Of a stretch of DNA of 54,602 nt, positions 1 to 2,525 are shown piece after piece (within the stretch, counting starts at the first letter, position 1; every line of letters starts with the position of its first letter). The stretch is from IMG/VR virus record IMGVR_UViG_3300006101_000015, positions 1 through 54,602 of that record, one strand, 5' to 3'. Under the pieces are notes generated by a model. That model was given only the letters and a program-made list of their open reading frames with translations, did not search any database and was not told the DNA's origin. This DNA comes from a virus. A program made the translations under genes and the position numbers.

Positions 1-329
1 CCTGTAAGATTACCAACACTCGAATTAAGAGTATCCATTTCTTCTTTGTCTTGAGTAATTAATCTCTCAAGTTTTTCATCATTATTATTTTCTTTTATGG
101 CAGCTGCTAATGTTTTTGATAATCCAGAAACAATTGATTCACTGATAGCTTGTGCTAACATTTTATTTGATTGTTTTACTGCTGGTGAATTAGCAGTAGC
201 ATTTGCTAAATTTGTATCTTTTAATTCAGCAAGCCTTTCTTGAAGATGTGTTGCACCACCACCTTGTTCTTCAATTTTTTTAAGCATCTGTTGAAATGCT
301 TTTTCGCTGAGTTCGATTGTACCTGCCAT
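1..329 (-). CDS. Probable tail tape measure protein, N-terminal fragment
   Basis: The first 109 codons of a leftward gene run off the window edge. The start ATG overlaps the stop of the preceding membrane-protein gene as TAATG, so translational coupling is likely. The visible part starts MAGTIELSEKAFQQMLKKI and is helical and charged, rich in Ala, Lys, Glu and Asn, with stretches able to form coiled coil. No enzyme motif is seen. In long-tailed phages the large tape measure gene follows the tail-assembly chaperone pair, and here it lies two genes after gp26 and the gp51-like ORF (T4 counterpart gp29). The assignment rests mainly on this position, because size and C-terminus cannot be seen. 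Another large baseplate-hub or internal tail protein is possible. Confidence 0.5.
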   Translation of the reverse strand, partial: MAGTIELSEKAFQQMLKKIEEQGGGATHLQERLAELKDTNLANATANSPAVKQSNKMLAQAISESIVSGLSKTLAAAIKENNNDEKLERLITQDKEEMDTLNSSVGNLT

Positions 330-835
330 TAGTTGCTACCTACTTTTGCTAATTTTTCTTGTCCTCTTGTCCATGCCGAAACGCCAAGAATACCACCAAA
401 TGCAAGATGAATGAGACCGCCATTGGATAATGTTAAAGATACCCATGGCGTATATGTAAATTGAACTCCCAATCCTTTATAAATTACTGGAAGAAATATT
501 GTTACCATTGGAAATCCAACGAAATCCATAAAACAAATAATCATATAGAGCCAGCCCATTGCTGGTCTCCAATATGCCTTTACCCAATGCTCTTCTTCTT
601 GTCTTAACTGTTCTTCGATAATTTGTTTATCAATAGAAGTTTGCGCAAGACCGACAGAAGCCTGTGATTGAGCTTGTGCAGTAGCTAACTGCATGGTTTG
701 TAGATTTTGCGAATTATTATTTGTTGAATTATTATTGTCTATGATAACAACGGAAGGCTGGACAACAGGCGCAGGTGTTGGTGCTACTGGATCAGGAGCA
801 TTTTCATCAGCTGTAGTGTTCGTAAATTTAGCCAT
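329..835 (-). CDS. Holin-like membrane protein (GTA_holin_3TM type)
   Basis: The protein has 168 aa. Residues 1-45 are Pro/Asn-rich and probably disordered. Residues 46-85 are Gln/Glu-rich and helical. Two to three hydrophobic segments follow, at about 92-119 and 132-156. The pattern Trp-Arg-Pro-x-x-Gly-Trp (89-95), an N-in hydrophobic hairpin and a terminal RGQEK segment resemble the three-TM holin family first described in gene transfer agents. If so, it would permeabilise the inner membrane at lysis. No endolysin gene is adjacent. It sits between the tail chaperones and the probable tape measure gene, so a virion or tail-assembly membrane role is a real alternative. Its ATG overlaps the end of the gp51-like ORF by 8 bases and its stop overlaps the next ATG by one. 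Confidence 0.55.
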   Translation of the reverse strand: MAKFTNTTADENAPDPVAPTPAPVVQPSVVIIDNNNSTNNNSQNLQTMQLATAQAQSQASVGLAQTSIDKQIIEEQLRQEEEHWVKAYWRPAMGWLYMIICFMDFVGFPMVTIFLPVIYKGLGVQFTYTPWVSLTLSNGGLIHLAFGGILGVSAWTRGQEKLAKVGSN

Positions 836-971
836 TTTGTTGTTTCATCTTTTCTTCTTTTTCTTGGAGATAATCCATAATCATTTCATAATACACATCT
901 CTTTCGAAAGGAAATAAATTTTCAATTTCAGTTATAGAATATTTATGGTGCTGGGCCAATGAAAATATCAT
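828..971 (-). CDS. 51: Small gp51-like ORF, probably the frameshift extension of gp26
   Basis: This 47-codon ORF starts MIFSLAQHHKYSITEIENLF and ends in a charged helix (YLQEKEEKMKQQNG). Short proteins of this kind follow gp26 in marine T4-like phages and are labelled baseplate hub assembly catalyst (gp51), although T4 gp51 itself is much longer. There is no Shine-Dalgarno sequence before the ATG; the upstream bases are only A/T/C-rich. The frame is open upstream without a stop all the way back into the end of gp26, where an in-frame run of seven T residues allows a -1 slip. I therefore infer that it is mostly made as the C-terminal part of a gp26-gp51 fusion of about 293 aa. It overlaps the next gene by 8 bases (ATGGCTAA). 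Confidence 0.6.
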   Translation of the reverse strand: MIFSLAQHHKYSITEIENLFPFERDVYYEMIMDYLQEKEEKMKQQNG

Positions 972-1001
972 AGTATAATAATTTTGTAGAGTATTATGAC
1001 T
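972..1001 (-). other. Possible stimulatory hairpin downstream of the slip site
   Basis: In the mRNA sense, AGTC-ATAATA and TATTAT-ACT can pair around an 11-base loop. This gives nine base pairs with one bulged C, starting about 11 bases after the slippery heptamer. The stem is A/U-rich and weak, so it may be incidental. A shorter GAGT/ACTC stem in the same place is an alternative. Confidence 0.3.
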
Positions 1002-1708
1002 CAGCGTAAGGTAAAAAAATCGGTTAACGAAGATAAACTAATAGTTCTTTCTTTGCCATTAGAATTAGTATATTTGATATCATATGACATTTTTGGTTGG
1101 TCGGTCATAAAATTTTTAATTTTTTCAAAAGTTTTAACATCTAAACTTTCTAAGAAATTTTCTACATCTTCTTTTTTGTAGCTTTTAACATCATACATTT
1201 CTTCGCCATCATAAATTTTATCAATACATTTAATGATAAGATTAAACAATGCATCGTCACCAGAATTTAAAAATTCTTTATCGTCATAAAGAGAAGCATT
1301 GGGGTATTTCATTAAAATTCCAGTATCATCACCAATTTTAATGTTATTTTCTATTTTATCAGGAAAATTAATTTTAATATCATTAAGATTAACTTCAAAA
1401 TCATAAATTTTATTGTCTTCATTATCCCTATACGCTACCTTTACTATATCTTCAACAGAAGCTGCACGAATTTTAATAAACAAATATTCTAAATCAAAAA
1501 TTGATAAATTGTCAACATCGAATAATTCATCAACTGCACAGTTGTTTACAATTTGTTTGATGGCTGTTAAAATATCTTCGTCTTTTTCTGAAAGTTTAGC
1601 CATAAGAAGAATTTTTTCTTCTTTTACAAGAAACGGTCTAAACATTTCTTTTTTCTTAGTAGAAGGTATTTCGATAGTAAAAGTAGGGAATGAAATTTTA
1701 GGTAACAT
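1001..1708 (-). CDS. 26: Baseplate hub subunit gp26 / tail assembly chaperone
   Basis: This 235-aa protein matches the T4_baseplate (gp26) family in character: MLPKISFPTFTIEIPSTKKK at the start, then RPFLVKEEKILLMAK, which is the typical beginning of these chaperone-like proteins, and a central helical and acidic region. T4 gp26 is 208 aa. I chose the ATG at 1708 rather than the TTG four codons upstream because GGAG lies seven bases before it. The gene follows gp54 by 22 bases. In T4 it acts in central hub assembly. By position before the tape measure gene, and because of the slippery heptamer at codons 230-232, it looks like the short partner of a frameshifted tail-assembly chaperone pair. 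Confidence 0.75.
   Translation of the reverse strand: MLPKISFPTFTIEIPSTKKKEMFRPFLVKEEKILLMAKLSEKDEDILTAIKQIVNNCAVDELFDVDNLSIFDLEYLFIKIRAASVEDIVKVAYRDNEDNKIYDFEVNLNDIKINFPDKIENNIKIGDDTGILMKYPNASLYDDKEFLNSGDDALFNLIIKCIDKIYDGEEMYDVKSYKKEDVENFLESLDVKTFEKIKNFMTDQPKMSYDIKYTNSNGKERTISLSSLTDFFTLR
1013..1019 (-). promoter_or_regulatory. Candidate programmed -1 ribosomal frameshift site (T-TTT-TTT)
   Basis: On the minus strand gp26 reads GAT TTT TTT ACC TTA CGC TGA, so the seven Ts are phased as T TTT TTT, a canonical X-XXY-YYZ heptamer four codons before the stop. After a -1 slip the reading continues TAC CTT ACG CTG AGT with no stop until the end of the gp51-like ORF at 828. Position (end of the chaperone, before the tape measure) and direction match the G/GT frameshift conserved in dsDNA tailed phages. 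Slippage itself is inferred, not observed. Confidence 0.65.
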
Positions 1709-1730
1709 GATATACTCCAATTGTTAATAA

Positions 1731-2525
1731 TTATACAGTGCCAAGTATTTTCGTTCCATTTGACGAAACATTAGGAACATCAGCAAATCCAAAAGAACCA
1801 GTAGCTCCAGTTTGTGTTACTAAAGAACCTCCAACTGGTTCTCCGTTGCCTCCAAAAATACTACTACTTAAACCAGAAGAAAAGAAATTCGATGCAGCCG
1901 ATACGATACCGCCAACAATATTGTTTATTCCATATATTCCCCAACGAGTATACGCAAATTTTACAGTAAATTTCATTGGTCTATCTCTGTCGGACCAATC
2001 TAATGGTATCTCGGTAATAGAATCTGGATATGCTTCATAAAGGATAATTTGTTTTGTTAAATTACCAAAATTATCATAAACTAATATTGATATATCTGTA
2101 ATATAATCTGATTTATAACCGATTGAATAAGAAGGAGAAGGAAAAAATGAAAAACTAGAACCAGTAAAATCGATTATGTTAGAAAACCAAGAATAAAAAT
2201 ATTTGTAAATATCTCCACGACTGTCAGCAAGAAACGTAACATTAACATCTGGAAACAATGCATTAAACGGCATTTTTTGATTTACGCCAGTACCCTGAAC
2301 ACGTACGTCTTGAGTTTGTAAACTAAATCCAGGAACAGAAGCTGCTTCAGCACGGAACTGTAAAGCTCTCATGCTATCAATAGTAAAAAGTGGATCTAAT
2401 GTATTTGTAAATGTGCTTACTAAAACATTCGGAGATATTGGAATAAAAACAGAAAATTTATTGTTCTGTAAAATACCATATTCTGATATGTTAGATTTAA
2501 ATTCTGATATATTGAATGCTGGCAT
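1731..2525 (-). CDS. 54: Baseplate tail-tube initiator, gp54-like
   Basis: This 264-aa protein belongs to the T4 tube-protein fold group. It begins FNISEFKS, close to FNISTFKS of the gp19 tube protein elsewhere in this window. It shares gp19's layout: a beta strand at about 24-30, FRAEAASVPGFSLQTQDV at 57-74, then a VQGTG and MPF loop and a DVNVTFLAD strand at 93-101, followed by YFYSWFSNI. In T4, gp54 sits on gp48 at the top of the baseplate and primes tube polymerisation. T4 gp54 is 320 aa, so this one is shorter, with a Gly/Ser-rich C-terminus. Its start overlaps the preceding stop as TAATG. The choice between gp54 and gp48 rests on the better gp48 candidate at 3613. Confidence 0.6.
   Translation of the reverse strand: MPAFNISEFKSNISEYGILQNNKFSVFIPISPNVLVSTFTNTLDPLFTIDSMRALQFRAEAASVPGFSLQTQDVRVQGTGVNQKMPFNALFPDVNVTFLADSRGDIYKYFYSWFSNIIDFTGSSFSFFPSPSYSIGYKSDYITDISILVYDNFGNLTKQIILYEAYPDSITEIPLDWSDRDRPMKFTVKFAYTRWGIYGINNIVGGIVSAASNFFSSGLSSSIFGGNGEPVGGSLVTQTGATGSFGFADVPNVSSNGTKILGTV

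Follow-up and report, generated by a model that had tools for sequence, protein, structure and literature searches.

Background

Frameshifted tail assembly chaperones (TACs) are best known from phage lambda, where a short chaperone, gpG, is accompanied by a long form, gpGT, that arises by a -1 shift between overlapping frames upstream of the tape measure gene. gpG outnumbers gpGT by about 30:1. Each of them binds to the tape measure protein, the T part attaches to the tube protein, and the virion contains neither (PMC5009743). In the Vandenendeviridae/Andersonviridae (phage Adele) a conserved -1 frameshift at a T-rich site joins the short chaperone domain (TAC-N) to a downstream ORF that is routinely annotated as a separate gene (PMC12846349). 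T4 has long been listed as an exception to the frameshifted chaperones of long-tailed phages (PMC5009743); its gp26 and gp51 both figure as hub assembly chaperones in PMC3004832, gp51 being required for assembly and absent from the particle. Vladimirov, Gautam and Davidson (2022, Virology 566:9-15) are cited for poly-T frameshift signals in the TAC-N genes of T4-like phages (in PMC12846349), as well as for members of the T4-like group in which a short gene is accompanied by a fused long gene and frameshifting is not used (in PMC10885494). As their work is reported in these citing papers, the gp26/gp51-type genes were identified as a tail assembly chaperone pair already in 2022, and frameshifting in T4-like phages is not new.

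Here, we describe the corresponding locus of an uncultured lineage, as found in the window, i.e. the whole stretch of 54,602 nucleotides that was analysed (IMG/VR virus record IMGVR_UViG_3300006101_000015). What is added to the above is broad evidence of conservation and a conserved RNA stem beside the slip site. Judged from the sequence, -1 frameshifting is very probably the route by which the tail encoded downstream of gp26 is reached, which would yield a short chaperone of 235 aa and a long one of 293 aa.

Results and discussion

A phased slippery heptamer near the end of gp26

The features of the locus are collected in Table 1. On the minus strand of the window the 3' end of gp26 reads GAT TTT TTT ACC TTA CGC TGA, in which the T run at 1019..1013 constitutes a phased heptamer of the type X XXY YYZ, precisely as the original prediction had it. 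Its further claims, namely that reading in the -1 frame continues past the slip site without a stop and that this produces a fusion of about 293 aa beside the 235-aa gp26, hold as well: 63 codons follow up to the stop at 828 and the computed fusion (TAC-NC) measures 293 aa. Among the 36 ORFs of the window, gp26 is the only one that combines a phased heptamer near its end with a long -1 extension (57 aa beyond its stop); one other ORF has such a heptamer, with an extension of 5 aa.

Table 1. Coordinates of the features at the gp26 locus of the window
Feature	Position	Strand	Remarks
gp26, predicted short tail assembly chaperone (TAC-N)	1001..1708	-	235 aa; stop TGA 1003..1001
GGAG, Shine-Dalgarno-like, of gp26	1715..1718	-	6 nt before gp26 ATG
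Slippery heptamer T TTT TTT	1013..1019	-	phased with gp26 (GAT TTT TTT)
-1 frame tail (TAC-C, 'gp51')	828..1019	-	63 aa from slip site; stop 830..828
Annotatable separate gp51 ORF	828..971	-	47 aa from ATG 971; judged not to be an independent gene
Spacer between heptamer and stem	1006..1012	-	7 nt
Stem 5' arm GCUGAGUCA	997..1005	-	candidate stimulatory 9-bp stem
Stem 3' arm UGGCCCAGC	950..958	-	38-nt loop separates the arms
Holin-like three-TM ORF	329..835	-	168 aa; PF11351 GTA_holin_3TM E=2.2e-6; phrog_3427 holin E=2.2e-9
Putative tape measure protein, N-terminus	3..329	-	cut by window edge

The locus resembles the T4-like TACs of 2022, as these are cited, in having the same genes, a poly-T -1 site close to where the short form ends, and a long and a short product; it differs in belonging to an uncultured group, whose gp26 is at most about 40% identical to that of the phage relatives listed, all isolates. 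The lambda slip sequence is G GGA AAG, unlike the T TTT TTT of the window. The Adele-type system, which belongs to a different myovirus family, differs in its slip motif as well (GTTTTT versus U UUU UUY; PMC12846349).

Conservation of the heptamer

The original prediction proposed conservation of the heptamer and of a stop-free -1 overlap among relatives as a check. We compiled 265 gp26 loci from six protein scans of viral contigs, 15 annotated phage regions, T4 and the record of the window itself; one of the loci is incomplete. (A scan with the gp26 of Atu_ph04 as query found no loci.) A phased T TTT TTY is present in the last gp26 codons of 259 of the 264 complete loci and T TTT TTA in one more, so that the phased heptamer occurs together with a stop-free -1 tail in 260 of the 264; in related loci the gp26 stop follows 0 to 9 nt after the heptamer. 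The exceptions are T4 and KP15, which have the long and short forms as two separate genes, and the Vibrio phages SUMAE and K475, in which an open -1 tail runs past the gp26 stop in the absence of a canonical heptamer. In the latter two (L094 2492..3226 and L095 2252..3073, respectively) ACTTTTC and GCTTTTTG take the place of the heptamer.

When only loci below 85% identity are considered, NNT-TTT-TTN is found in 145 of 145, against about 65 expected from codon use, a difference with a nominal log10P of -57 that is uncorrected for kinship, the sequences being related and not independent. At the other codon positions of gp26 a phased T6 occurs in 0.09% of cases. In one locus (L265) the heptamer reads T TTT TTA, by which the second Phe of the zero frame has become Leu while the heptamer is kept, and this implies that it is the nucleotide run that is retained rather than Phe-Phe.

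A conserved RNA stem downstream of the slip site

One element of the original prediction was not borne out: the weak hairpin about 11 bases downstream of the slip site does not rise above background (z = +0.44, 63rd percentile). This candidate was rejected, as local structure is at background on average in the group of the window too when folded in windows of 45-50 nt, which are too short to contain the stem described below.

RNAalifold applied to the window's group indicated a long-range stem between columns 15-23 and 62-70, counted from the heptamer. At least 8 of its 9 pairs can form in 61 of the 78 non-redundant loci of the group, sliding one of the arms abolishes the pairing, and in an unbiased scan the stem ranks first among all 9-bp stems. 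All nine pairs are present in 46 of the 78 loci, compared with 24.0 +/- 2.7 when synonymous codons are permuted among the sequences (46 was reached in 0 of 2000 permutations) and with 1.5 when synonymous codons are drawn at random. Cells changed on both sides of the stem number 22, against 9.3 after shuffling, and four of the pairs show such two-sided changes (e.g. CTG/CAG versus TTG/CAA, both synonymous). The stem of the window itself has 8 of the 9 pairs, with an A-C mismatch at pair 5 that makes it weaker than the group consensus; it folds only modestly better than shuffled sequences do (z -1.69; 12 of 200). An RNA structure at a spacing of 5-9 nt is a common, though not obligatory, companion of this type of frameshift site, and the 9-bp stem begins at 7 nt. 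In the window's group no additional stem emerged that would make a pseudoknot of the 38-nt loop, and a search of Rfam returned nothing at curated thresholds. The stem is not mentioned in the literature that we searched, a body of papers that did not include Vladimirov, Gautam and Davidson (2022).

The T run also invites a reading in which not the ribosome but RNA polymerase slips. Homopolymer slippage is a known route to two products (PMC5009743) and runs of 7-8 T's stand at the site in 93 of the 145 non-redundant loci, but the other 52 have six T's only (TTTTTTC or TTTTTTA), no run exceeds eight, the phase of the run is in every case that of a tandem-slip heptamer, and the stem stands 7 nt away, a spacing typical of ribosomal -1 frameshifting. 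Transcriptional slippage is, in our judgement, very unlikely.

Different signals in the cyanophages

The cyanophage loci, which have T TTT TTC, are without the 9-bp stem of the window's group. Local hairpins are commoner in them than in the background (mean z -1.16). A consensus structure computed on the cyanophage set contained no pairs, because the hairpins differ in position among lineages; a stem scan yielded at least two alternative hairpins. Upstream of the slip site, 26 of 51 cyanophages have a Shine-Dalgarno-like motif, versus 6 of 93 loci of the T TTT TTT group (background 1.8%), an enrichment that is confounded by the protein, since GAGGG overlaps a conserved Leu-Glu-Gly. In L083, L090, L116, L120, L158 and other cyanophage loci, strong hairpins lie 4-8 nt after T TTT TTC and GAGGG precedes the slip site by about 10 nt.

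We consider it reasonably likely that the T4-like phages share one chaperone pair and slip site and differ in the accompanying RNA signals. The window's group would then combine U UUU UUU with a 9-bp stem (38-nt loop) located 7 nt downstream, and the cyanophages U UUU UUC with local hairpins that vary between lineages and, in about half of them, an upstream Shine-Dalgarno-like GAGGG as in dnaX, while the T4 group would have dropped frameshifting in favour of a duplicated, fused gene.

The tail evolves as a coding sequence in the -1 frame

Read in the -1 frame from the heptamer onwards, the tail begins FFYLTLSHNTLQNYYTMIFSLAQ... (also written FFYLTLSHNTLQNYY...). In a profile search phrog_634, 'baseplate hub assembly catalyst', matches residues 2-62 of this reading (E=5.4e-25). 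If gp51 is read from its own ATG only, the match starts at the second residue and the first 16 residues of the tail are lost. The family profile therefore reaches upstream of the ATG, into a region that would be decoded solely by frameshifting. These 16 residues, absent from the ATG-started ORF, are conserved: the tail can be aligned with 37 relatives and with the C-terminus of T4 gp51, and a conserved motif, FFYxALSHNxLxNYY...QHHKYS...ENLIPFERD, runs through it.

For codons 6-14 of the tail, which lie after the gp26 stop, base changes were compared in loci whose tails are free of ATG up to codon 15. Third positions account for 56% of the differences, and the single-base differences divide into 2400 synonymous and 584 nonsynonymous ones in the -1 frame, against 249:2428 and 758:2200 in the other two frames (pairwise counts, which are not independent). 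The region is thus under coding evolution in the -1 frame, ahead of any possible ATG start. Moreover, the position of the gp51 start codon is not conserved among relatives: no ATG occurs in the first 16 codons of 97 of 140 tails, in the first 30 of 48 and in the first 40 of 32, the tail having about 62 codons. Many relatives lack any start codon that would allow gp51 to be produced on its own.

Relation to T4 gp26 and gp51

At the level of sequence families, gp26 is matched by PF12322 (T4_baseplate, E=1.3e-54) and phrog_150 (E=6.8e-60), so that, as befits the T4 gp26/gp51 family, the short form has a full-length profile match and the tail a profile match of its own. An AF2 model of gp26 (pLDDT 89.3) has the HK97 tail assembly chaperone 2OB9 as its best PDB fold match, albeit a weak one (E=0.35, prob 0.89; TM 0.21/0.42 over about 70 of 235 residues). 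Sequence searches of solved structures with gp26 and with T4 gp51 gave no match, and an NCBIfam search returned nothing.

Genes 26 and 51 of T4 lie on opposite strands. Their products each match PF12322 over the full length and align with each other by BLAST (E=2e-6), and gp51 runs 48 residues further, into phrog_634, with an extension that aligns with the -1 tail. By their sequences, T4 gp26 and gp51 are paralogues. Thus gp51 is the counterpart of the frameshifted long form, and gp26 that of the short one. In KP15 the same two proteins are encoded by adjacent genes. The window shows no such arrangement of two full-length genes: its record, which is incomplete, holds one PF12322 copy, and the tail is present only as the -1 extension.

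These data bear on the alternative that the tail is a separate gp51 gene, whose translation would begin either at an ATG of its own (971) or, through termination-reinitiation, at the stop of gp26. Most phage records annotate such an ORF, the window does have the ATG, and the gp51 start annotated for Cr30 overlaps the region of the gp26 stop. Against it, a Shine-Dalgarno sequence is missing at ATG 971, as the original prediction had noted, start positions are not conserved, many tails are free of ATG over 30-40 codons, and the peptide ahead of the ATG is conserved and covered by the phrog_634 match from residue 2. A separate gene would also leave the invariant heptamer and the stem unexplained, and T4 has this tail joined in frame to a gp26-like domain. 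Relatives that lack a slippery run or have stops in the -1 frame, and synthesis of gp51 from its own ATG alone, had been named beforehand as observations that would speak against frameshifting; on each of these points the computation favours frameshifting, 32 of the 140 tails being ATG-free over 40 codons, and a separate gene retains a very small probability.

That the pattern is a coincidence, i.e. that Phe-Phe is kept for protein reasons in an AT-rich genome next to a -1 frame open by chance, is practically out of the question, for although DFF is found in gp26 without exception and codon use leans towards a final T (1213 TTT versus 585 TTC elsewhere), this reading is refuted by the comparative tests, namely the T TTT TT in every non-redundant locus against the 65 expected, the rarity of a phased T6 at other gp26 positions, the locus that has Leu for the second Phe and yet retains the heptamer, and the evolution of the tail as -1 coding sequence.

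Proposed mechanism and implications

The proposal that gp26 and gp51 are one chaperone pair made by frameshifting is supported by the heptamer and -1 tail in 260 of 264 loci and by the T4 paralogy. In this scheme gp26 would be the short chaperone (TAC-N). The tRNA-Phe in both the P- and the A-site would, in a minority of ribosomes, slip back one base on U UUU UUU, aided by the 9-bp stem that starts 7 nt downstream, and -1 decoding would then run through the 'gp51' frame to give the 293-aa TAC-NC. By analogy with gpG/gpGT of lambda, the tape measure protein would be coated by many copies of the short form and few of the long one, which would recruit tube subunits and then leave. In the T4 group both products would come from paralogous genes, the short one from 26 and the long one from 51. 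The occurrence of the slip, its efficiency and the chaperone role are matters that we infer. Points that count against the scheme are the weak fold match, the mismatch and modest folding of the window's own stem, the status of the downstream ORF as a tape measure candidate by position and length, and the reported finding that in E. coli U UUU UUU shifts less readily than A AAA AAG does (PMC5009743).

As a consequence, annotation of these phages should treat 'gp51' as the part of gp26 that is reached by frameshifting and no longer as a catalyst in its own right; two genes are still shown in hundreds of phage records. The approximately 145 non-redundant loci lend comparative support to the view that T4 gp26 and gp51 are the short and long chaperone that elsewhere are made by frameshifting. 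In addition, the conserved stem offers a compact cassette (about 1060..940) with which -1 frameshifting on U UUU UUU can be tested in bacteria.

Neighbouring genes

The original prediction placed the pair just before the tape measure gene. A candidate for that gene is indeed nearby, but the placement is off by one gene: unlike in lambda, a holin-like ORF of 168 aa lies between. The downstream ORF is a putative tape measure gene on account of its position and length, there being no family match that proves it; in contig G001, which is near-identical, the frame stays open for 800 aa, and phiM12 and Cr30 annotate the gene at this position as tape measure-like. The putative tape measure ORF of the window's lineage (L001 3880..5703) has weak endolysin/peptidase phrog matches in its middle. 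A small ORF between the chaperone and tape measure positions is also found in phiM12, Cr30, Melnitz and IC12, that of IC12 showing two weak matches, one to holin/anti-holin and one to EF-hand. Directly upstream of gp26, the ORF at 1731..2525 on the minus strand of the window is tail-tube-like (Phage_TTP_2, 4e-7; gp19, weak), and its counterpart in phiM12 is annotated as tail tube gp19.2.
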